IMG/VR virus record: IMGVR_UViG_3300036884_000069 | Location: 1-20,930 of that record | Direction: 5' to 3' (one strand) | DNA from: a virus | Length of the DNA: 20,930 bases | Shown here: piece after piece, positions 3,405 through 19,751 of the stretch | Layout: every line of letters begins with the position of its first letter | How positions within the stretch are numbered: position 1 is the stretch's first letter | The notes under the pieces: model-generated | Told to the model about the DNA's origin: nothing | Database searches by the model: none | The model's input: only the letters and a program-made list of their open reading frames with translations | Program-made: the position numbers and the translations under genes

Positions 3405-4328
3405 TTAGATTAACGCTGACTTTATCTTGTTTATGCACGCACTCACATCACTATAAATTTCACATTCTTTAATTCTGATAACCTTATAACCCCTATTAGT
3501 AAGAAATGTGTCTTTCCGTTTGTCTTGTACTATTCTTTTGGGTAACGAATGCCAGTAATCTCCATCCACTTCTACACATATTCGATTAGATTTATTCAAT
3601 TCATCAATCTCAAAATAATATAGAGGCTGACAACTTTCAAATCCGCTATAAATACCCTCCTTAATCATAGAACCTTTCAACATCATATGAGGTTTAGAAA
3701 GCGGGTTAATCGTTTGATTCCGTAAAGCCGTTGTGATGGCTATTTTAGACTTAATAGAATTTGCCTTTTTAACACCATAAATGTCATCATAACTCTTGCC
3801 ATTTCGCAAAGCAAAATTATGTTGCTTAAAGCAATTTGTGGAGCAAAATTTGTTGTAATTTACAGATGAATAGTTCTGGAACAGGCAACCACAATGAACA
3901 CACGTATAATCTATCAAATGCTTCGGTCTATTCTCATAAAACAATCGCATTCCTTCTTGGGAGCATTCTTTCGAACAATATTTCTTATTAAGACTTCGAT
4001 GCTTAGAGTCGGGGACGTTGATGTAGTCATTTCCACAAATACAGCACGGCTGCACAATCCGTTTCAATTTTAATTTGTGTGGGGACTTTTTCTTTGTAAT
4101 AGAAATGCATTTCCTCGTCTCAATGGGTATAGACTTACCTTTCCAATACCCCGTCTTCCCCACATGGAAATTATGTACTATGTTGTGATACCTTAACCAT
4201 TTGTGAAATGTTCTATAATCACAGCCAAATACATTTATGCAATCCTTTACATTTTTATACTTGTGAATGGCATCCAGCAATTCTTCTTTATGTGGTATTT
4301 TTCTTGTATTCATGTGCAACAAATACAT
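3405..4328 (-). CDS. Putative homing endonuclease: zinc fingers plus Vsr-like (EDxHD-type) nuclease
   Basis: The protein has 307 residues. Residues 10-60 look like a helix-turn-helix region (VKDCINVFGCDYRTFHKWLR). Two zinc-binding clusters follow: CCICGNDY...KYCSKECS (around 115-150) and YTCVHCGCLF...FCSTNC (around 165-190). Next comes a NUMOD3-like stretch (GKSYDDIYGVKKANSIKSKI). The C-terminus is a Vsr-fold PD-(D/E)XK nuclease with ICVEVDGDYWHSLP and later RGYKVIRIKECEI, as in the EDxHD homing endonucleases. It lies 34 bp downstream of the RNR gene, in the same direction, a usual landing site for free-standing homing endonucleases. The gene is AT-rich. The start could be the ATG at 4328 or at 4313, as neither has a Shine-Dalgarno. 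Target cleavage near the 3' end of nrdJ in uninvaded relatives is inferred. Confidence 0.82.
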   Translation of the reverse strand: MYLLHMNTRKIPHKEELLDAIHKYKNVKDCINVFGCDYRTFHKWLRYHNIVHNFHVGKTGYWKGKSIPIETRKCISITKKKSPHKLKLKRIVQPCCICGNDYINVPDSKHRSLNKKYCSKECSQEGMRLFYENRPKHLIDYTCVHCGCLFQNYSSVNYNKFCSTNCFKQHNFALRNGKSYDDIYGVKKANSIKSKIAITTALRNQTINPLSKPHMMLKGSMIKEGIYSGFESCQPLYYFEIDELNKSNRICVEVDGDYWHSLPKRIVQDKRKDTFLTNRGYKVIRIKECEIYSDVSACINKIKSALI

Positions 4329-6445: not shown

Positions 6446-7849
6446 TTAGCTGCCGCTTGGACCATCGTTGTCATGCGTCTCTTTCCAACGCTTGCCAAAG
6501 ATTTCCTTGAGTTGTTCCTCAGCACTTTTGACCTTGCTGATGACTTCCATACCTTCGACGCTGTTCTTCTCGAAAATCTCAATCTTGCCGCAAGAGGTAT
6601 CGAAAGCGCATGGATACCAAACGCCATCGGGACCAAAGCGATTCTTCATCACATAGACACGACCCGTGCCTGCCATCTTGTCTTCCTTCTTACGGGACAA
6701 TGACATGATGAAGTCACCAATCATAATCTTGCGATAGCTGTCAGCCACACCCATTGCCTCAATGATGTCTTCTTCGTGAACTCCACGATTGGCTTGCGAA
6801 GCAGTCCATCCCGGTACTTGAAGTTCGCCAAGCATTCCACGGAGTTCATCATAGACATTACCCGCTTCGTTGTAGGAATTGGAGTTCCGCTCTTGCATGA
6901 ATGGACGGAGAAGGTCGGCGTAGTCAACAATCACAAGGTCAATCTTGACTCCCGTGATTAGCTGCAACCGCTCAATATGCATCTTCAATGTCGCAGCCGA
7001 GGCAGTCTTGGTCGGGAAGTATTTGATGAAAAGTTTGCCGCAGCCCTTGCCTTTGATTTCGTCAAGCTTCTTCTGAATGAGAGGTTGATTCTTGCGAACT
7101 TCTTGAAACGCTATGCCAGAAAAAATGGAGTCATATCGAAGTCCAACATACTTTTCATTCAACTCCATTGTGAAGTGCATGACATTCTTGCCTTGCAACA
7201 TAGCCTCAGCACCAATACGAGCCAAGAACCATGATTTACCACTTCCAGCGGGAGCAACTACAAATCCAAGTTCCCCTTTTCCAAGACCACCATCAAGATG
7301 GGTATCAATAATACCCCAATTGGTCTTTACGACTTCTCGTGCCATTGCCGACATGCGCTGGTCCATTTCTACGAGATACTCGTGCCCGAGATTTCGTTCC
7401 ATGCCCGCCTTTGAAGCTTCATTGATGGCGTGCCATATGCCTTCATAGTCGCCTTCCTTCAACAAAATCTGCGAAGCCCAAATGGCGTTCTTCAACTTCT
7501 GATTGCGGCAGAACCCCAAGAACTGTTCCTTGACATATTTCAAATCCTTGGCGGTTGACACTTCGTTATATGCCGCTTTGACTTGCTCCCGAACAGCTAC
7601 TTGTAGTAATGGGTCTTGTACCCGCATGATTTCACACGCAAATACCGACATCGTGGGGATGTCTCGGTACGTGGGAAAGTATGTGGACACGAATTTCACG
7701 ACCCATTTATGTGCATCTGTTTCCCAAAAATCGGGAGACATGATGTCAATAATTCGTTCCAAAAATGCACGGTCAGAAAGCATTGCGGCTAAACACTTTG
7801 ATTGGAAGGCAACTCCAAACGCTTTCAAGGTATTATTTTGTTCATTCAT
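6446..7849 (-). CDS. Replicative DNA helicase, DnaB/gp41 type
   Basis: The protein has 467 residues, close to the usual DnaB or T4 gp41 length. The N-terminal part (1-170) is helical, as in the DnaB primase-interacting domain. The RecA-fold motor starts near 175 (GIIDTHLDGGLGKGELGFVV). Walker A is APAGSGKS (199-206), Walker B is LVIVDYADLL (305-314), and the strand-4 signature TASQANRG is at 349-356. It unwinds the fork 5'-3' as a hexamer; the polymerase and SSB genes are also in this window, but no primase was seen. Its start overlaps the last 8 bases of the upstream endonuclease gene, and AAGGA lies about 14 bp before the ATG. Expression is probably coupled to that endonuclease. The nrdJ gene follows after 106 bp. 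Confidence 0.94.
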   Translation of the reverse strand: MNEQNNTLKAFGVAFQSKCLAAMLSDRAFLERIIDIMSPDFWETDAHKWVVKFVSTYFPTYRDIPTMSVFACEIMRVQDPLLQVAVREQVKAAYNEVSTAKDLKYVKEQFLGFCRNQKLKNAIWASQILLKEGDYEGIWHAINEASKAGMERNLGHEYLVEMDQRMSAMAREVVKTNWGIIDTHLDGGLGKGELGFVVAPAGSGKSWFLARIGAEAMLQGKNVMHFTMELNEKYVGLRYDSIFSGIAFQEVRKNQPLIQKKLDEIKGKGCGKLFIKYFPTKTASAATLKMHIERLQLITGVKIDLVIVDYADLLRPFMQERNSNSYNEAGNVYDELRGMLGELQVPGWTASQANRGVHEEDIIEAMGVADSYRKIMIGDFIMSLSRKKEDKMAGTGRVYVMKNRFGPDGVWYPCAFDTSCGKIEIFEKNSVEGMEVISKVKSAEEQLKEIFGKRWKETHDNDGPSGS

Positions 7850-8480
7850 ACTTCTTCAATTCCTTTGTTTCCTCTCTATATCTATAAAAATCACATTTTA
7901 GAATGCTTTTGATTCCGTTCATTCTATCTATATCAACCACACGAAGATTACCACTTGATGTATAATGATGTGGCTCATCATATTCAATTACCAACCCCAT
8001 CACAGGCTCATAATAATCAACGAAATACTTTCCATTACCAACTTCATATTCCCCGCCGTTCAGAGCATAACGACCATTCCAACCTCGTTCGCAATTCAAG
8101 CGTCGAAAATATTCGCAGGCATCCCTATTATAGTTAGGATAATAATACGCATTTGTTCGTTTCAAATATGCTATCCTTGATGCTCGCATCTTTTCTCTGC
8201 TCTCATCGGTGGTTATTTTATGATGATTTCTCCACAATATCATTTCTATATTCTTAGGCAATTTTCCTTTGAGGCGGCGACTTATTTTCTTGCGACATGC
8301 GGCAGTTAGATGCTTCCCGTACTGAGGGTTATTTTCATCAATCTTGGAGCAGGACTTACATCGAGCATTGATTTTCTGAAAATAGTTTCGGTGGTCTTTT
8401 CTGCTATGCCATACTACTTTCCCACATTCGGGGCAATTCCGTGACCATTTCCCTTTCATCTCATCTGGTTGTGGTTCCAT
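7842..8480 (-). CDS. Putative homing endonuclease: zinc ribbon, NUMOD3-like motif, PD-(D/E)XK nuclease
   Basis: The protein has 212 residues. The N-terminus is a zinc ribbon (CPECGKVVWHSRKDH, then CKSCSK). NUMOD3-like DNA-binding motifs follow at about 55-72 (KHLTAACRKKISRRLKG) and 94-108 (ESREKMRASRIAYL). The C-terminal nuclease core reads KYFVDYYEPVMGLVIEYDE followed by PHHY, then VDIDRMNGIKSILKCDFYRYRE, a compact PD-(D/E)XK/Vsr-type layout. It lies immediately upstream of the helicase gene and overlaps its start by 8 bp, a typical intergenic homing position. AGAAG, about 6 bp before the ATG, could be the ribosome site, and a weak promoter lies about 30 bp upstream. It is the first gene of the minus-strand endonuclease-helicase-nrdJ block. 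The exact nuclease family is uncertain. Confidence 0.8.
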   Translation of the reverse strand: MEPQPDEMKGKWSRNCPECGKVVWHSRKDHRNYFQKINARCKSCSKIDENNPQYGKHLTAACRKKISRRLKGKLPKNIEMILWRNHHKITTDESREKMRASRIAYLKRTNAYYYPNYNRDACEYFRRLNCERGWNGRYALNGGEYEVGNGKYFVDYYEPVMGLVIEYDEPHHYTSSGNLRVVDIDRMNGIKSILKCDFYRYREETKELKKYE

Positions 8481-8669: not shown

Positions 8670-9785
8670 ATGACAAACGAAAACTACACAGTTGACATCC
8701 TCATCAACGATAAACCAGTGAGGAAATTCCCGTTTAATGACAAACTCTTTGTCGAAGCCCGCAAGGGGCAGGAATATTCCATCCGCATCAAAAACAATTC
8801 ATATAGCCGAATTCTGGTTGTATCTTCCGTTGATGGACTAGACGTTCTCACAGGAAAGTCAGCACTTGAAAATGGAAATGGATACGTCATAAATGGTTAT
8901 AATTCATTGACTATTGACGGCTTCCGTGTTTCCAACGAAAAGGTTGCGAAATTCCTCTTCGACTACAAAGGCGGTTCCTACGCTGCTTCCAAGGAAGATG
9001 GCTCGGAGCGCAATGTCGGCGTAATCGGAGTTCGCATTTTCACCGAGAAAGTCAAGCCCCTGCCCCCGCCTCCCGTTGTTATTCGGGAAGAGCATCACCA
9101 CCACCATGACCATTACCCCACGTATCCACCCTATGATCCTTGGTACAGGCGTCCCTATTGGTGGGACACCACCACCATCTGGTCCAGAGGTCTGACCAGT
9201 GACGGTGACACGGCTAGGTGGCAAGGGACTGTCTGCAACTCTACGGGAGACTCTCTCCGCTCTGACAGCGGCATGGGTGCCGAGTACGAGCGTGATTCTC
9301 TTCATGACTGTCTGTACTCCTGTGACAACATTCCTACCAAAGGTGCTACATCCGGTCCTCCCGGTGCAACTTTGGGAGGTCACACCAAAGGTATCAAACC
9401 CCGTGGAGTCACAAAATCGTCCGCAGTAGGACAGACTGTAAATTCCGTTAAGCAATCGTTCAACCTCATGGGCAATGCCTCTACTGCTAAAGCATCCAAT
9501 GCTTCGCAAGAGAACTTGCTCCGTTCCATGAACTGCTGCTCCAATCCTGCGCCAGAGCCTCTCGGCTTCGATATGGGAACCCGCTACGGAGAATCCAAAG
9601 AAAGTAGAGTTATCGAGGTAGAATTTGAGAAGGGAATTCTCGCTTTCACCACAAGCATCTATTACGCTAGTCGTCAAAGTTTAATTGAAATGGGCGTGCC
9701 TCTAACAAATGAGAAACAAGTCAGTTTTCCGGAACCATTTGCAGGGAACAAGTATTCTGTTCCGCCGAAGGACTGGAAGGGCTAA
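8670..9785 (+). CDS. Conserved protein of unknown function with His-rich and Tyr/Pro-rich insert; lone cargo gene
   Basis: The protein has 371 residues. Residues 8-125 form a compact beta-rich domain with strongly patterned motifs (ILVVSSVDGLDVLTGK at 48-63, GYVINGYNSLTIDGFRVS at 71-88, SYAAS, RNVGVIGVRIF). Residues 129-168 are low-complexity: PLPPPP, a HHHHHDH run, then Tyr/Pro/Trp-rich. Residues 169-295 are Ser/Gly/Thr-rich with scattered Cys. Residues 298-345 form a second conserved block (LGFDMGTRYGES, YYASRQSLIEMGV), and the C-terminus ends in PPKDW. From memory, the two blocks match a widespread bacterial and phage family with no assigned function. There is no signal peptide or membrane segment. 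It is the only plus-strand gene between 1 and 18454. It has a consensus promoter and an ideal ribosome site (AAAGGAG), so it looks like independently expressed early cargo. Confidence 0.8.
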   Translation: MTNENYTVDILINDKPVRKFPFNDKLFVEARKGQEYSIRIKNNSYSRILVVSSVDGLDVLTGKSALENGNGYVINGYNSLTIDGFRVSNEKVAKFLFDYKGGSYAASKEDGSERNVGVIGVRIFTEKVKPLPPPPVVIREEHHHHHDHYPTYPPYDPWYRRPYWWDTTTIWSRGLTSDGDTARWQGTVCNSTGDSLRSDSGMGAEYERDSLHDCLYSCDNIPTKGATSGPPGATLGGHTKGIKPRGVTKSSAVGQTVNSVKQSFNLMGNASTAKASNASQENLLRSMNCCSNPAPEPLGFDMGTRYGESKESRVIEVEFEKGILAFTTSIYYASRQSLIEMGVPLTNEKQVSFPEPFAGNKYSVPPKDWKG

Positions 9786-10398
9786 TCCACTTCCTAAAAT
9801 TATCAATAGCCCACAAAGGCTGCATATTGGTATAATGAAAACACGCTCCCTGTTCAGATGGGAGTGACAAATTAAAAGTGGCACATGCTCTAATATGATC
9901 TATATGCCACTTTCCATAATTATCCCAAGACATACCCGACAAAAATTTAGACTCTAAGTATTTTTTGAATTCATCTATACTACATCCTAACAAATCTATA
10001 GTATGATTTGTTTTTATTGTTGATTGACTTTTTACCGCCGACCATAACCTATGCCGCAAATAAGAAGAAACCTTATAATTTACATTAGTATCCATCAATA
10101 ATTTCTGATACCGTGTTCGTTTTTCTCTATTTCTAGTTCTATATTTTTTGAAATATTCTTTTCGTTTGAAATTGCTTTTCAAACAATAACCACGCATTTT
10201 ATTTCGATTATTCCGGACCCACTCTCGGCATTTTTCATAATGTTTAGATTTGTTCCTCAAATAATGTGAATGATGTTCGTTTTTTCTGCACAATTTACAC
10301 ATTTCCCTTAATCCGTCTTTAGACCTAGAGGATTTGTGAAAGTCGCCGATGGGTTTCAATTCTTTACATTTGGTGCAATGTTTCTTGGGTTCATTCAT
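9721..10398 (-). CDS. HNH homing endonuclease with N-terminal zinc finger; 3' end antisense to cargo gene
   Basis: The protein has 225 residues. Residues 8-37 form a zinc finger (CTKCKELKPIGDF...CKLC). A very basic helical stretch follows with 15- and 11-residue periodicity (for example WVRNNRNKM, YRTRNREKR). The C-terminal half is an HNH domain closely like that of the 392-1021 protein: LGCSIDEFKKYL, MSWDNYGKWHIDHIRACATF, HYTNMQPLWAIDN. After the usual end of the domain the frame continues for about 20 residues into the antisense strand of the cargo gene, overlapping its last 65 bp. The start lies 5 bp after the stop of the small gene upstream. It is AT-rich relative to neighbours, and free-standing homing activity is inferred. 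Confidence 0.86.
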   Translation of the reverse strand: MNEPKKHCTKCKELKPIGDFHKSSRSKDGLREMCKLCRKNEHHSHYLRNKSKHYEKCREWVRNNRNKMRGYCLKSNFKRKEYFKKYRTRNREKRTRYQKLLMDTNVNYKVSSYLRHRLWSAVKSQSTIKTNHTIDLLGCSIDEFKKYLESKFLSGMSWDNYGKWHIDHIRACATFNLSLPSEQGACFHYTNMQPLWAIDNFRKWISPSSPSAEQNTCSLQMVPEN

Positions 10399-10889: not shown

Positions 10890-11963
10890 CTATTCTTTTC
10901 TCGTCACCGCATCAAGTGGTCCAAATACATCCGTTATCCATCGTGTATGATTTGGTAGATTACTATCTAACATGTCTTCCCGAACCATCTTAAAGAATGT
11001 GTTTCGATCAAGCATAGGAATCTTCGATGAATCAAGGCATTCATTGCAATGCAATTGACCTATGGTTGTAAGGGCAGTCTTCTTTAACTGCATAAGCTCC
11101 ACATTCCTATCCAAAACGTTTTTCCCGTTGTAAATGTTATCGCACACCTTGTACTTGTTCTTCAAGCCATCGGCATGTTTGATGATTTCGTCAACCGTGT
11201 GTAATTTCTCTTCGTTGAGCCACGGGAAATGCTTCACGATGGTCTTAGGACCGGCGAGTTCAATACCGGGGACATTATCGGAGTCATCGCCATCAAGCGC
11301 CCGATACAGCACAAAATTGTTGGGGTGAATGCTGTAGTCAGCCAGAACCTCGGTAGGTCCGTAGATGCGTTTCTTGGTCGGGGAATAGACGCTGACACGC
11401 CCATCACAGAGTTGCAAGAAATCACGGTCAGCAGACATGATATAGATTTTATTCGAACTCTTAAAATAATCTAATGCCAAATAAGCAATAACATCATCTG
11501 ATTCCTGATGGTCGAGGGAAAGAATATTGACGGGGAGGACTTGTAAATACTGAGTGAATCGAATATATTGCCTCTTGCAACTTTCTTCTTCCGTAGGAGC
11601 ATCTGACATTTCTTCATATGCTCTATTAAGACGAATTTTATTCTTTCTGTGTGCCTTATATTCAGGAAATATTTGACGCCGTTTGTAGGAGCCACCCACT
11701 CCATCAAAAATCACAACGCAACGAGTCGGAGCGAGTAACTTAATAGTGTATCCCAAAGATTTTAAAGAACCGATTACCCCTCCGGTATGATTTCCGTTTT
11801 CATCCATAGCAGGATTCGCATTCCACGCCCTCAAAAAAAGGTTGTTTCCATCCACCAAAAGAATACTAGAATTAGTGTCTCGTTTCCAGTCTCTCGTCGG
11901 GTCATTCTTCATGTTTTGAAGGATACCATACAATTTCGATTTCTCTTCTTTAGTGAGTTCCAT
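10890..11963 (-). CDS. 5'-3' exonuclease / flap nuclease (PIN-FEN family, T4 RNase H-like)
   Basis: The protein has 357 residues. The FEN metal-site acidic residues are in order: D38 (LLVDGNN), D87 (VVIFDG), E154/D156/D157 (DHQESDDVIAYLA), D179 and D181 (MSADRDFLQL), and D224/D226/D227/D229 (ALDGDDSDN). The last leads into the helix-hairpin-helix segment VPGIELAGPKTI. The helical arch region carries the basic FPEYKAHRKNK stretch. It would remove RNA primers and 5' flaps during lagging-strand synthesis, acting with the polymerase, SSB and helicase also present here. Its first 14 bp overlap the end of the DUF723-type endonuclease gene upstream; no Shine-Dalgarno is seen, so initiation may depend on coupling. 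Two small genes follow at 1 bp and -4 bp spacing. Confidence 0.92.
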   Translation of the reverse strand: MELTKEEKSKLYGILQNMKNDPTRDWKRDTNSSILLVDGNNLFLRAWNANPAMDENGNHTGGVIGSLKSLGYTIKLLAPTRCVVIFDGVGGSYKRRQIFPEYKAHRKNKIRLNRAYEEMSDAPTEEESCKRQYIRFTQYLQVLPVNILSLDHQESDDVIAYLALDYFKSSNKIYIMSADRDFLQLCDGRVSVYSPTKKRIYGPTEVLADYSIHPNNFVLYRALDGDDSDNVPGIELAGPKTIVKHFPWLNEEKLHTVDEIIKHADGLKNKYKVCDNIYNGKNVLDRNVELMQLKKTALTTIGQLHCNECLDSSKIPMLDRNTFFKMVREDMLDSNLPNHTRWITDVFGPLDAVTRKE

Positions 11964-12696
11964 ATTTTTGAATATTGGGAATTGTATCTAACCCATTCTC
12001 AAATCTACCCCAATCATCTTCCCAAATATATTTTACGAAATATCCCATATCAGAAAGAATTTTCATTTTATGAATAGTCGCTATATGCAATTCGCCATGT
12101 GTTTTATGACAAGTTTTATTATACGAAGACCCATCAAAACAGCGAGGATTTCCATGAAAATAATTACCAAAAAATTCATAAATGGTATTTGTTTTACTAT
12201 CAAACCCATCCACCTTGTATGGGGCAATGTACCATTGCCGACTTTCAGCAGGAACTCCCACATAATTTAGGAATTTCTCTTCGGCAACCGACACTCTATG
12301 ATGACACGACGGGCAACCATTTCCAGCCAAATGGTTATCGGGAGATTGCCTGAAAGGACCATGTTTCTTACAGCTTATGACTATTCGTTTTCGATTGTTG
12401 CTATATGACACCCCCGAATAATCATATTTATTCTCATGTACAACATTTGCCTTCTGAACAAATTCCGAAATTGTTAGAGTTCGGTCTCCAACTTGTTTTT
12501 CCAATCCACACCGAAAACATCCCTTCCCATGAAGATGATTATCAGGGGTCTGTCCAAATGTGTGGTCATGAATTTTACAACGAATAACAACATTGGTGCG
12601 AGCATTACAATAAACGACTTTAGAATAATCATATCTATCTCCATGTATTTTCATGGCTTTAGAAATAAATTCATACGTCGTTAATCTTTTCGACAT
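11950..12696 (-). CDS. DUF723-type homing endonuclease, two modules plus Vsr-like nuclease
   Basis: The protein has 248 residues. Two modules of about 62 residues lie at roughly 5-65 and 72-132. Each has the pattern F-x2-KA-x3-H-x-x-(R/K)YDYS, a VxI-x-C strand, a His, QxPDNHL and a final GC-x2-C, probably one zinc ribbon per module. The nuclease domain follows: YKVDGFDSKTNTIYEFFGNY, HGNP, then a Cys/His pair and MGYFVKYIWEDDW. It is clearly related to the plus-strand protein at 18454-19194. The gene lies between the 58-residue gene (8 bp gap) and the exonuclease gene (14 bp overlap), both on the same strand, and is AT-rich. The modules probably read the target DNA. Cleavage at the exonuclease gene's 5' side in uninvaded relatives is an inference. 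Confidence 0.85.
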   Translation of the reverse strand: MSKRLTTYEFISKAMKIHGDRYDYSKVVYCNARTNVVIRCKIHDHTFGQTPDNHLHGKGCFRCGLEKQVGDRTLTISEFVQKANVVHENKYDYSGVSYSNNRKRIVISCKKHGPFRQSPDNHLAGNGCPSCHHRVSVAEEKFLNYVGVPAESRQWYIAPYKVDGFDSKTNTIYEFFGNYFHGNPRCFDGSSYNKTCHKTHGELHIATIHKMKILSDMGYFVKYIWEDDWGRFENGLDTIPNIQKYGTH

Positions 12697-15184: not shown

Positions 15185-15667
15185 TTAACAGAAATCTTTG
15201 ACTTTTTCTAAACCCGCATATTTGAGTAAATATGATTTTGCATTCTCAAGTAGAGCCGTATTATCACAAAAATACCCAATTCCAGAGTTGCATTTGACGC
15301 ATAGAAGTCCTCGGACTTTTCCCGTAGAATGGTCGTGGTCAACGTGAAGACTTCTTTTATAGTCGGTGCTCGGTCTGCCACAAATCTCACAGCATCCGCC
15401 TTGCTCCTTAAGCATTCGTGCATAGTCTTCAAGCGTTATGCCGTGCCGTTTTTTGAGAGTTGCCTTCCCATCTATCTCACGAGTCCGTTCGGGATTATCA
15501 ACCCTCCACTTCTGAACCCACTCTCGGTACTTGTCTTTGTGGGATTCTCTCCATTCCCCATTCCACACCCGTCGCTTCTCCTTGGTATTCTTCCTGTACC
15601 GTTGAATATTTTCTTGATGGGAGAGTCTCCACTTACGATGGTACTCTTTCGTTTCGGATGCAGTCAT
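15185..15667 (-). CDS. Endonuclease VII-like HNH nuclease
   Basis: The protein has 160 residues. Residues 9-65 form a basic helical region with Tyr/Trp positions spaced 11 or 15 residues apart (W13, Y24, W39, W54). The C-terminal domain is that of recombination endonuclease VII: CEICG, HVDHDHSTGKVRGLLC, CNSGIGYF; the four cysteines bind zinc and the DHDH histidines and aspartates are catalytic. T4 gp49 of this family resolves branched DNA at packaging, but many phage proteins with this domain and repeat N-terminus are homing-type nucleases, and I cannot tell which applies. The start overlaps the stop of the ribbon-helix-helix-like gene as ATGA. The SSB gene follows after about 130 bp. Confidence 0.85.
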   Translation of the reverse strand: MTASETKEYHRKWRLSHQENIQRYRKNTKEKRRVWNGEWRESHKDKYREWVQKWRVDNPERTREIDGKATLKKRHGITLEDYARMLKEQGGCCEICGRPSTDYKRSLHVDHDHSTGKVRGLLCVKCNSGIGYFCDNTALLENAKSYLLKYAGLEKVKDFC

Positions 15668-15993
15668 ACTTTTACATGGGTGCGGTCAATCATCTCTTGA
15701 ATGAATTCCCAACACGCTTCTTTTGCTGCTTCCTCTCCACGTTTGATATATTCCTCGTGGATTCGCATAACAACTGAGATGTCAATGTATGCTTTATCCG
15801 TGATTACCCAATTCGTTTTCCCGAAGTTATTGTACAACTTCTCCCGCATAGGGTCTTCGTGGAACTTCTCGGAGGCGATTTGGGCAAGCCACTTTGGAAC
15901 ACTCAAAGAGCGTTCGTCGCAGTACTTCTTGATGGAGTTAAAATCCTCTTGGGCGAGGTTAACGGAATGTCTTTCTGAAAGTTTTTTCTTCAT
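15664..15993 (-). CDS. Hypothetical protein, possible ribbon-helix-helix DNA-binding N-terminus
   Basis: The protein has 109 residues. Residues 1-45 fit a ribbon-helix-helix layout: a short strand (RHSVNLAQED), helix A (FNSIKKYCDERSL), a turn, and helix B (VPKWLAQIASEKF). Residues 60-105 are mixed and helical (ISVVMRIHEEYIKRGEEAAK) with no motif that I know. It is coupled by ATGA to the endonuclease VII-like gene. A palindrome with 6 bp arms covers its start codon, which would suit autoregulation if the DNA-binding guess is right. The family assignment is tentative. Confidence 0.65.
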   Translation of the reverse strand: MKKKLSERHSVNLAQEDFNSIKKYCDERSLSVPKWLAQIASEKFHEDPMREKLYNNFGKTNWVITDKAYIDISVVMRIHEEYIKRGEEAAKEACWEFIQEMIDRTHVKV

Positions 15994-16012
15994 GCCTATA
16001 ACTATCAGGCAT
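15992..16012. promoter_or_regulatory. Palindrome over the start of the RHH-like gene
   Basis: ATGCCT (15992-15997) and AGGCAT (16007-16012) are exact inverted arms around 9 bases. On the minus-strand RNA the second arm contains both the AGG and the start codon, so folding would hide initiation. The loop includes CCTATAACTATC (with the arm edge), a 12-mer also present at 15135-15146 in the leader of the SSB gene. It may be an operator or a translational switch. Confidence 0.45.
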
Positions 16013-16039
16013 AATGACCAAAAATGATTAAATCTGATT

Positions 16040-17197
16040 TTATTCCAAAATGCATGTCAATATCGAATCCAAACTTTTTCTTTGCGTATAGGGAATACGA
16101 ACCAACCTAATGTTTCGGGAGTTGGCATAATTAGTCTTGATATGGTCTCGCCGTTTCAATTCATTAAACTCTTCTCTAGTAAAAACATGCCCTCTCTTGT
16201 ATCCCAATCTAACACCACATTTGAAATGCTGTTCTCCATCGAACTCTATAAGGATGTTTTTGGATGTTAAAAAGAAGTCAAATTTCAGTCTTCCCGCCCG
16301 CTTATTTCCAGTAGAGTTCAGTAAATCGGGAAACGTTTTTTGATGGACATAGGGGATGTGGTGGTCGTCAAGCCACTTAATTATTTTTCTCTCGGCTTTC
16401 GATGATTTACACTTGGGGCACCCAGTCTCTCCATGAAGATGGAGGTTTGGCTGCTGCCAGAAGCTCCCGTGCTTTCTACAAACGATTTCTACCTTTTTCG
16501 TGTTGTGCTCATAGTGAACACGAGAATAGTCGAACAAGTTTCCATGAATCAACTTCACGGCATCAATCCATTCTTCTTGCGTAAAAGTTTGAGATTCCGC
16601 ATTTTCTTCATTCGCACATTTTGGGCATCCATTTCCATTCAAATGACTGTGTGGAGACTGCCAAAAACTTCCATGCTTACTACAAACAATCTCAATCTTT
16701 TTATCAGTATGTTCATAACAGGATTTGGAATAATCATACAAATTACCGTGAACGGATTGGGCGTCATCGAGGAATTCCTGTTGTGTAAACGTTTTGGATT
16801 TTATCCGCTGTATCTCCCCACATTCGGGACACCCCTGCCTTTGATGTATATGCAGATTCGGGGATTTCCAAAACGACCCATGACTCGGACAAACTATCTC
16901 AACTTTGACTCGGCAAGTACTATATTTTGCTCGGGAATAATCATACACATCCCCATGAATTGATTTTGCACGAAGTATAAACTCTTCGGTGGATGGAATG
17001 TTTTTCCCCGAACACTTTAGGCATCCCTGTTTTTGGTCCACATGAGAGTTGGGTTTCTGCCAAAAAGAACCGTGGGTTTTACAAATGATTTCCACTTTGG
17101 TACGATTGTTGACATAGTTCACTTTAGAATAATCATACCTATTTCCATGAACTACTATGGCGTTGTCAATGAATTTGGATAAAGTTAATCCTTTCAT
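16040..17197 (-). CDS. DUF723-type homing endonuclease with four modules and a different nuclease domain
   Basis: The protein has 385 residues from the ATG at 17197; a TTG at 17233 is a possible but poorer start. Four tandem modules of about 62-65 residues occupy roughly 1-255. Each shows (V/I)HG-x2-(Y/F)DYS, a VEI-x-C strand, HGSFW, P-x2-H and a final GC-x2-C. The nuclease domain follows: KAERKIIKWLDDHHIPYVHQ, LKFDFFL, ILIEFDGEQHF, then RRDHIKTNYANSRNIRLVRIPY, a PD-(D/E)XK core unlike that of the two other DUF723 proteins here. It sits between the 132-residue gene and the RHH-like gene, all on the minus strand. A 6 bp inverted repeat (17200-17205 with 17209-17214) lies 2 bp before the ATG and could limit translation. 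Confidence 0.87.
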   Translation of the reverse strand: MKGLTLSKFIDNAIVVHGNRYDYSKVNYVNNRTKVEIICKTHGSFWQKPNSHVDQKQGCLKCSGKNIPSTEEFILRAKSIHGDVYDYSRAKYSTCRVKVEIVCPSHGSFWKSPNLHIHQRQGCPECGEIQRIKSKTFTQQEFLDDAQSVHGNLYDYSKSCYEHTDKKIEIVCSKHGSFWQSPHSHLNGNGCPKCANEENAESQTFTQEEWIDAVKLIHGNLFDYSRVHYEHNTKKVEIVCRKHGSFWQQPNLHLHGETGCPKCKSSKAERKIIKWLDDHHIPYVHQKTFPDLLNSTGNKRAGRLKFDFFLTSKNILIEFDGEQHFKCGVRLGYKRGHVFTREEFNELKRRDHIKTNYANSRNIRLVRIPYTQRKSLDSILTCILE

Positions 17198-17244
17198 GGT
17201 CGTTATTTTAACGAACCAATAGAGAAACCGCAACTTATATTAAC

Positions 17245-18418: not shown

Positions 18419-18429
18419 AATTTGCTATG

Positions 18430-18453: not shown

Positions 18454-19194
18454 ATGTCTCAAAAATTAACGACCCCGCAGTTTATAGAACGAGCAATTTC
18501 CATCCACGGAAACAAGTATGACTATTCTCAAGTTTCCTATTCTGGCATGAATGCCAAAGTTGTTTTTAGTTGCCATAAACACGGAGATTTTTTACAAACC
18601 CCGCTCAATCATTTACAGGGAAATGGATGTAACAAGTGCCGTTACGAAAATCATCCATCACTTCAACCAAAATCTACATCCGAATTTGTGTTAGAAGCAA
18701 AACAGAAACACAACAATAAGTATGATTATTCGCTCGTCAATTATAGGCAATCACATTCCAAAATTACTATAATCTGTCCATTCCACGGAAATTTCTATCA
18801 GACACCAAGACATCATCTGAATGGTGATGGGTGCCCCAAATGCGTCAAACGCATTTCGTTTAGAGAAACTCAGTTTTTGAATTATATCCACATTCCCGAC
18901 ACAAAAGAAAATAGACAAGTAGCAATATTGGGAAAACAAGTAGATGGAATTGACTTAGTGACAAATACCATTTATGAATTCCTTGGAGATTACTGGCACG
19001 GAAACCCCGAAAGATTTAAGTCGGGAGAGACAAACCAAATGTGTCATAAACCCCACGGGGAATTATACAACGAAACAATACAGCGACTTAAGAAACTAAA
19101 AGAAGCAGGCTACAACGTAAAATACATTTGGGAAAATGATTGGAAACGGTTTGAGTGTGGGACTGAAAAAACCCCAAGGATATTGGCTATATGA
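18454..19194 (+). CDS. DUF723-type homing endonuclease, two modules plus Vsr-like nuclease
   Basis: The protein has 246 residues from the ATG at 18454 (MSQKLTTPQFIERAISIHGN); an in-frame ATG at 18427 would place the start inside the TATAAATA element. Two modules (about 5-65 and 72-130) each carry H-x2-KYDYS, a conserved Cys after a beta strand, a His-Gly or Pro-x-H motif and a final GC-x2-C. The nuclease domain has VDGIDLVTNTIYEFLGDYWH, GNPERF, a Cys/His pair and AGYNVKYIWENDWKRFECG, closely matching the minus-strand protein at 11950-12696. Its stop overlaps the J-domain gene's start as ATGA, so the endonuclease is coupled to it. AT-rich codons support recent insertion. Confidence 0.85.
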   Translation: MSQKLTTPQFIERAISIHGNKYDYSQVSYSGMNAKVVFSCHKHGDFLQTPLNHLQGNGCNKCRYENHPSLQPKSTSEFVLEAKQKHNNKYDYSLVNYRQSHSKITIICPFHGNFYQTPRHHLNGDGCPKCVKRISFRETQFLNYIHIPDTKENRQVAILGKQVDGIDLVTNTIYEFLGDYWHGNPERFKSGETNQMCHKPHGELYNETIQRLKKLKEAGYNVKYIWENDWKRFECGTEKTPRILAI

Positions 19195-19751
19195 TACGAC
19201 TCAAAGACATACTACTTGAAGGAATGACGCCCGATGTCGCCGATACCATCTTTTCGAAATTTGGTGTTAAAAACGCATCTTCATTAGACAAGGGGGAACT
19301 GAAGAACTACTATATTGCCCTCGTCAAAAAGCACCACCCCGACAAGGGAGGAAAAGACGAAGACATGCGATTCATCAATGCCGCCTATGATGTATTGAAA
19401 AATCCTGCTGCTGCTCTTCGCCCAAAAGCCCCCGTCGTGAACCCGAAGGATTATAGAACCTATCCGAAAGGAAGTAACAAAGCCCGCCTATACAAAGTAA
19501 GTGTGCAATTTCTGTTTGATGACGAGTCTCTTATTGCTGCTGGAAAAAGCGATTACTTCGACCTTATCAAAATATTCCAAATGTTGAAACTGTTTCGGAT
19601 TATGGTGAATTTTGATCCCGTATCTCCTTACGACGAAGAAAAAGAAGAGTGGCGCACAGGCAAGATTCTGATTTATGTGAGTAGCAATGTACAGTCGAGA
19701 GACTTTATCATAAACGCCGTTCGCAGCAAAATCCGACAATACTATTCCTAA
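19191..19751 (+). CDS. J-domain (DnaJ-like) protein with possible capsid-targeting leader
   Basis: The protein has 186 residues. A J-domain spans about 13-72 with the diagnostic HPD at 49-51 (KKHHPDKGG) and the following helix FINAAYDVLKNP. No Gly/Phe region or zinc-finger domain follows; residues 95-186 form a separate folded domain (YKVSVQFLFDDES, FDLIKIFQMLKLFRIMVNF, GKILIYVSS) that I do not recognise. It should stimulate host DnaK on a specific client, perhaps in virion assembly or replication. Residues 1-11 (MIRLKDILLEG) are a short amphipathic leader containing LLE, like prohead-protease-cleaved leaders in T4-type phages. The start is coupled to the endonuclease gene by ATGA. The 3' end overlaps the convergent polymerase gene by 4 bp. 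Confidence 0.87.
   Translation: MIRLKDILLEGMTPDVADTIFSKFGVKNASSLDKGELKNYYIALVKKHHPDKGGKDEDMRFINAAYDVLKNPAAALRPKAPVVNPKDYRTYPKGSNKARLYKVSVQFLFDDESLIAAGKSDYFDLIKIFQMLKLFRIMVNFDPVSPYDEEKEEWRTGKILIYVSSNVQSRDFIINAVRSKIRQYYS

Follow-up and report, generated by a model that had tools for sequence, protein, structure and literature searches.

Arrays of a zinc module joined to Vsr/EDxHD-type nucleases in a phage contig, and a set of module positions that may determine specificity

Three genes of a 20,930-base viral contig (hereafter the window, meaning the whole stretch analysed) encode proteins in which a small zinc module is repeated ahead of a nuclease end. Does each module read a segment of DNA, so that the number of copies would set the length of the specificity? 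This was the suggestion of an earlier note on the same DNA, which described arrays of 2, 2 and 4 copies joined to different, swapped nuclease ends and acting like zinc fingers. The genes are designated B2, C2 and A4, and their features are collected in Table 1.

Architecture of the arrays and their nuclease ends

Motifs of the HGx2YDYS and GCxxC type recur every 63 to 69 residues, 4 times in A4 and 2 times each in B2 and C2. The eight modules so defined (four in A4, two in B2 and two in C2, each of about 62 residues) are 37 to 61% identical in a nearly gap-free alignment. A4 and C2 match each other by BLASTP with E = 4e-35 and in three staggered registers, which excludes chance as an explanation of the shared modules; B2 and C2 share 49% identity along the full length, nuclease included. 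In Pfam, A4 scores 38.9 against DUF723 (PF05265, cut-off 20.9) and 27.1 against DUF4379 (PF14311, curated cut-off 24.5), and the latter cut-off is also exceeded by B2 (28.9) and C2 (30.6). The CapR homology domain (PF21817) gave 14.5 bits for A4, below its cut-off of 24.2, and at E 0.1 it was absent from the lists for B2 and C2. The arrays described in the earlier note are thus borne out. A4 was called from the ATG at 17197, a longer alternative TTG start being possible at 17233; for C2 a longer alternative start is possible at 18427.

Table 1. Predicted features of the three module-array genes in the window (core: residues at seven module positions, see text)
Feature	Coordinates	Strand	Residues	Core	Basis or remark
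A4, four-module homing-endonuclease-type gene	16040..17197	-	385 aa		Pfam, module HMM, fold
A4 module 1	17009..17191	-	aa 3-63	NRKNSDK	module HMM
A4 module 2	16817..16996	-	aa 68-127	CRSNLHR	module HMM
A4 module 3	16613..16795	-	aa 135-195	TDSHSNN	module HMM
A4 module 4	16406..16591	-	aa 203-264	NTQNLHE	module HMM
A4 nuclease domain, Vsr/EDxHD type	16043..16405	-	aa 265-385		fold and catalytic residues
A4 extra segment, approximate	15994..17244				segment missing, with about 40-60 bp between the flanking genes, in L107, L112, L113
B2, two-module homing-endonuclease-type gene	11950..12696	-	248 aa
B2 module 1	12505..12690	-		ARTDNHK	module HMM
B2 module 2	12298..12483	-		NRSDNAN	module HMM
B2 nuclease domain	11953..12297	-			subtype shared with C2
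B2 segment	11964..12887				absent in L109/L170, with 5 bp between uvsX and exo
C2, two-module homing-endonuclease-type gene	18454..19194	+	246 aa
C2 module 1	18460..18642	+		MNTLNQN	module HMM
C2 module 2	18664..18846	+		SHTRHND	module HMM
C2 nuclease domain, Vsr type	18847..19191	+			fold and catalytic residues
C2 segment	18332..19188				empty site in L100, L102, with about 141 bp instead

Each module contains a predicted zinc site, C-x2-H...C-x2-C, the putative ligands of which (C35, H38, C54 and C57) are kept at 98 to 100% in 341 modules; DUF4379 is listed in Pfam as a probable treble-clef zinc finger. In AF2 models the module folds as a helix, a beta hairpin, a short helix and a second zinc knuckle. 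The mean pLDDT was 94.0 for C2 and 91.6 for A4, and pTM was 0.54 and 0.57, respectively. Such a combination of high local and low global order would be expected of well-folded domains that have no fixed mutual arrangement, as beads on a string, and it agrees with the notion of modules as independent units rather than parts of one globular pack. The PDB fold search barely tested the module, since nuclease matches took up its lists, and for the module region there were only rows of mitoribosome chains, at Z 4.2 to 4.8. The likening to zinc fingers did not hold for the classical type: C2H2 fingers follow C-x2-4-C...H-x3-5-H, with about 30 residues per finger, whereas the modules combine their own ligand pattern with a fold of about 60 residues, probably a treble clef.

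Concerning the nuclease ends, a sequence search of solved structures was of little help: the C2 profile had no match among them and the A4 profile only weak ones (AbaSI, E 0.048; I-Bth0305I, E 0.57), and folds were therefore compared. The AF2 model of the A4 nuclease superimposes on I-Bth0305I (3r3p) with Z 10.3 and an rmsd of 2.3 over 90 of 97 residues; for Vsr (1cw0) the Z score is 10.4. Its residues E269, D307, E318 (the x position), H324 and D351 make up the EDxHD set and are present in 40 of 40 sequences of this type. Read as a classical PD-(D/E)XK nuclease, A4 offers D307...E318-F-D320 with the expected lysine missing, and this assignment was rejected. For C2 the matches were to Vsr (Z 8.7) and I-Bth0305I (Z 7.1), only slightly above the values common for unrelated folds; the catalytic residues, together with a full-length hhalign alignment of the A4 and C2 nuclease profiles (E = 8e-5, probability 33%), add support to a predicted Vsr-like fold. 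In the C2 type D164, E175 and H182 are kept, E138 is found in 84%, and a threonine (Thr208) replaces the final EDxHD aspartate in 19 of 19 sequences. We describe the B2/C2 nuclease, from these residues, as a probable diverged Vsr-like branch and not as EDxHD proper, and its predicted activity is less certain, the final acidic residue of the set being missing.

We conclude that the A4 and B2/C2 ends are two branches of one Vsr/EDxHD family and that the window holds two nuclease subtypes, not three. Swapped ends, as proposed in the earlier note, do exist across the module-array proteins; within the window, the A4 end belongs to the nuclease family of the other two, as a diverged branch. I-Bth0305I shares with A4 the catalytic fold and the E-D-x-H-D residues, at 19% identity in the aligned core, and 3r3p is the catalytic domain alone; long, multi-domain DNA recognition has been reported for this enzyme (PMC3943268). 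Vsr has the fold common to both window subtypes, but it works in mismatch repair and has no module array.

Insertion sites and probable mobility

The window was compared with phages that are about 70 to 85% identical to it, at the nucleotide level, in the flanks. For all three genes, presence and absence at one site was seen among close relatives (Table 1). Besides the approximate A4 segment, an exact absence of 15669-17240 was found in L099, L100, L102 and L103, where window position 15668 is joined straight to 17241 and A4 is missing. At the B2 site, L110 carries an allele of B2 that is 71% identical, at the identical position. Of the A4 homologs in the fetched loci, the nearest has three modules and occupies a different intergenic site, in L111, and relatives are spread over many unrelated phages (981 phage records for A4 and 683 for C2). 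On the grounds of the empty sites, of this displaced homolog and of the 981 A4-matching records, A4, B2 and C2 are very likely free-standing insertions of the homing-endonuclease type, a prediction made from sequence comparison. They are called free-standing because they are intergenic. An intron-borne origin was considered and rejected: no Rfam family, introns included, matched the window or any of four relatives, and the genes lie between genes.

A small gene (15664-15993) adjoins A4. Its N-terminus is conserved in relatives and its C-terminus is very different, and some relatives are without it. It is missing together with A4 in L099, L100, L102 and L103. It was rejected as part of a mobile unit and treated as a neighbour gene, because its relatives (39 to 42%) adjoin the same gene without A4 in L107, L112, L113 and L117.

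Presence and absence could also result from ordinary recombinational gain and loss, the nucleases then being exclusion or anti-competitor enzymes that do not mobilise themselves. Homing endonuclease genes are placed at boundaries of genetic exchange between phages in a passage of PMC10448857, and at a capsid-gene site of Klebsiella phages, described below, whole arrays are swapped with the nuclease half retained. We nonetheless regard this explanation as rather improbable: the A4 and C2 relatives are scattered as mobile genes would be, and in the loci fetched the homolog closest to A4 is at another site. The exclusion and self-mobilising roles are not mutually exclusive.

More remote still is the idea that the arrays repress transcription, or regulate in some other way by binding DNA, and that the nuclease is secondary or inactive. 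CapR of the Vibrio cholerae satellites, a repressor, does have a related zinc module (PMC10448857), and proteins made of modules without a nuclease occur in L061. However, the nuclease domain is retained in all three window genes, the five catalytic residues of the A4 type are invariant in 40 relatives, and presence or absence at clean sites is what homing predicts. We consider this alternative very improbable.

The window is rich in other genes of this sort. Five more endonuclease-like genes (HNH-like, DUF559/MTES_1575 and EndoVII) are found at 392-1021, 3405-4328, 7842-8480, 9721-10398 and 15185-15667, and the window has at least 8 endonuclease-like genes in 21 kb. Some are missing at the same place in relatives: 9787-10398 in L109; 15185-15667 in L101, L109, L114 and L116; and 7842-8480 in L104. 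A DnaJ-domain protein (19191-19751) starts within C2, overlapping its end by 4 bases. In L113 (12918-15939) the DnaB helicase gene is interrupted near its P-loop: two genes whose ends are intein-like flank a separate Vsr-like nuclease gene, as in a 'fractured gene'. The uvsX gene is divided likewise in L107 (8980-11715), where the two parts have an intein-like tail and an intein-like head and enclose a different endonuclease-like gene. The L113 nuclease is C2-like (32%, E = 2e-12) and fused to a weakly NUMOD3-like N-terminus, which indicates that the C2-type nuclease also pairs with other DNA-binding parts.

Copy number and hypervariable positions

Copy number was surveyed against nuclease type in 96 distinct complete IMG/VR proteins, window included. 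It ranges from 1 to 6. With the A4-type nuclease, 2, 3, 4 and 5 modules occur in 7, 14, 27 and 13 proteins, respectively; with the C2-type nuclease, 1, 2, 3, 4, 5 and 6 modules occur in 1, 7, 8, 7, 2 and 1. Six other proteins have GIY-YIG or other ends and 3 or 5 modules. Among protein pairs whose nucleases are 50 to 90% identical, copy number differs in about 63%. No link between copy number and nuclease type was seen in this survey: copy number is free of nuclease type, and its variability, claimed in the earlier note from three genes, extends to 1 to 6 copies within one type. Nor is it dictated by the site occupied, since alleles of 3, 4 or 5 modules are found at a single capsid-gene site of Klebsiella phages. 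Copy number may set the length of the specificity, as suggested in the earlier note. Proteins of 5, 2 and 3 modules without a nuclease are encoded in L061 (3944-4981, 6059-6478 and 6712-7302) and are possibly repressors or module donors.

The modules do not vary evenly along their length. In the 341 modules, entropy is highest at positions 27, 28, 42, 44, 46, 47, 50, 52 and 23, and this ranking of nine positions was unchanged when L075, the window and L110 were left out. L075 (1590-6260) has four tandem module-nuclease genes with slightly overlapping ends and 5, 4, 5 and 3 modules, recently amplified and 58 to 89% identical; it represents a naturally occurring library of variant modules. In its 17 tandem modules the nine most variable positions have a pN/pS of 1.54, as against 0.28 at the remaining positions, while synonymous divergence is similar. 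The variability of these nine was equalled by none of 20000 random sets of nine positions. After L075 and other data had been viewed, the nine were narrowed to a 'core' of seven positions (27, 28, 44, 46, 47, 50 and 52), the exact membership of which is provisional; the remainder of the module is referred to as the scaffold.

Between non-orthologous modules the core difference is on average 0.82 to 0.89 (about 85%), flat from less than 5% to more than 60% scaffold divergence in 393 modules, so that the core differs by about 85% even where scaffolds are more than 90% identical. Modules 3 and 4 of A4, for instance, differ at 7 of 7 core positions and at 15 of 51 others. The earlier note's idea calls for variable residues that face the DNA: a set of seven variable positions does exist, hypervariable in paralogs and conserved in same-site alleles (see below), and its residues may face the DNA. 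The seven-position pattern was not found described in the literature searched, and a search of the text of PMC10448857 for hypervariable or diversifying was also empty.

Same-site alleles and possible target recognition

The cores of alleles at one site show the opposite behaviour to those of paralogs. Independent same-site pairs are few: one comes from the phage group of the window and a small number from phages of Klebsiella and Salmonella; another scan for further same-site alleles of B2 returned only the known phage. B2 and its L110 allele differ at 2 of 14 core positions and at 33 of 102 others, the core ARTDNHK being exact and NRSDNAN having two changes. B2 and C2, which occupy different sites, differ at 12 of 14 core positions. 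The contrast between the two comparisons gave a Fisher P of 0.0004 for the core and 0.11 for the other positions, in tests that treat positions as independent and use a small sample of alleles.

Klebsiella Jedunavirus phages (L187-L193, L196, L198-L200) have one insertion site behind the major capsid gene. It is occupied by four alternative array types, of 4, 5, 3 and 3 modules, with related C-terminal halves. Within an array type, the core has been kept in module pairs whose scaffold differs by 8 to 16%; over these pairs and one Salmonella pair, 0 of 42 core positions differ, compared to 31 of 295 others. A few isolated core changes are found where modules have diverged least, such as N to S in module 1 between L187 and L188. 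In a module pair common to the 4- and 5-module types, about one-third of the scaffold has changed, and 6 or 7 of the 7 core residues are kept, the count varying with the alignment. There are exceptions: module 3 of L187 and module 5 of L193 differ at 6 of 7 core positions, and module 1 of Xanthomonas L206 and module 1 of L204 differ at 5 of 7. These pairs may be retargeted arrays; they also weaken a simple rule of core conservation.

The simplest explanation is that core positions would contact the target, and would have to be kept while the target stays and be changed when it changes. Judged from these comparisons, the pattern is the putative signature of specificity-determining residues, and it supports the view that each module would contribute a specificity of its own. 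It might be argued instead that the modules form a general or structural nucleic-acid clamp, serving as a distance ruler or affinity enhancer, with target choice lying mainly in the nuclease or in a single module and the variable positions being relaxed surface sites. The zinc finger of I-TevI is indeed a distance determinant and not a base reader (PMC2988022), and a single site that accepts 3-, 4- and 5-module alleles would suit a clamp. Relaxed sites, however, would be expected to drift at least at the pace of the scaffold everywhere, whereas in the same-site alleles, with the 0 of 42 and 2 of 14 core changes given above, conservation of the core equals or exceeds that of the scaffold. Paralogs with nearly identical scaffolds differ at most core positions, and pN/pS exceeds 1 at the variable positions in L075. 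We consider a clamp unlikely, if less so than gain and loss by recombination.

The explanation that accounts best for the data, and which we hold with good confidence, is a free-standing homing endonuclease with a module array whose specificity is set by the core. Its starting points are demonstrated: the repeats, the conservation of the zinc ligands, the nuclease fold and catalytic residues, the empty sites and the contrast in core conservation. The N-terminal array of independently folded zinc modules would bind a long site in the DNA of a phage without a copy of the gene; the C-terminal Vsr/EDxHD nuclease would cut at the bound site; and repair from the gene-bearing phage would copy the gene into the cut. 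Specificity would come mainly from the roughly seven core residues of each module, and new specificities would arise through duplication, loss and exchange of modules together with diversification of the core.

Proteins of this kind, a nuclease with a module array, have already been described, in two papers of the literature searched, and A4, B2 and C2 belong to them. EDxHD/Vsr nucleases with 3 to 5 CapR/DUF4379/DUF723-like modules were reported in 2025 for four proteins in group II introns, in the relevant passages of PMC12350094. As described there, several modules of about 60 residues precede a C-terminal EDxHD/Vsr-like nuclease of about 100 residues, an order and a proposed role shared with the window genes; those proteins are intron-borne, whereas the window genes are free-standing and include 2-module forms, and these passages give no analysis of variable positions. 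Repeated CapR/DUF723/DUF4379 zinc modules are also known from the T5orf172 homing endonucleases (PMC10448857, 2023). That system shares the module family, a variable repeat number, recombination between repeats and domain swapping, and the beads-on-a-string idea is stated for it; its nuclease is GIY-YIG, and not Vsr/EDxHD as in the window. DNA binding by the modules and their joint specificity have been proposed in passages of both papers (PMC12350094, PMC10448857). Hef of phage U5, a free-standing homing endonuclease, is reported to cut nrdB (PMC2988022); similarly built Klebsiella phage proteins are annotated 'Hef-like', a likeness that comes from annotation of relatives.

A further step would be to regard the module as a stackable DNA-reading unit, in which a seven-residue code is carried on a constant zinc scaffold, retargeting occurs by shuffling and residue change, and arrays of 1 to 6 modules could be decoded like TALE repeats. 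We put this forward tentatively, as conceivable and rather less than probable. TALE-like readers also place variable specificity positions on a constant scaffold, a likeness of pattern for which homology is not claimed. The base pairs read by each module we can only infer, and the recognition-code reading is open but testable.

Homing endonucleases with long, changeable specificity have been hard to grasp because their DNA-binding parts are idiosyncratic. If the modules read DNA segment by segment through a few known positions, specificity could be decoded from hundreds of natural arrays, and a compact DNA reader made of zinc modules would become available. The way in which selfish genes of phages change target would also be accounted for: the nuclease stays and the array is replaced, as at the capsid site of Klebsiella phages.
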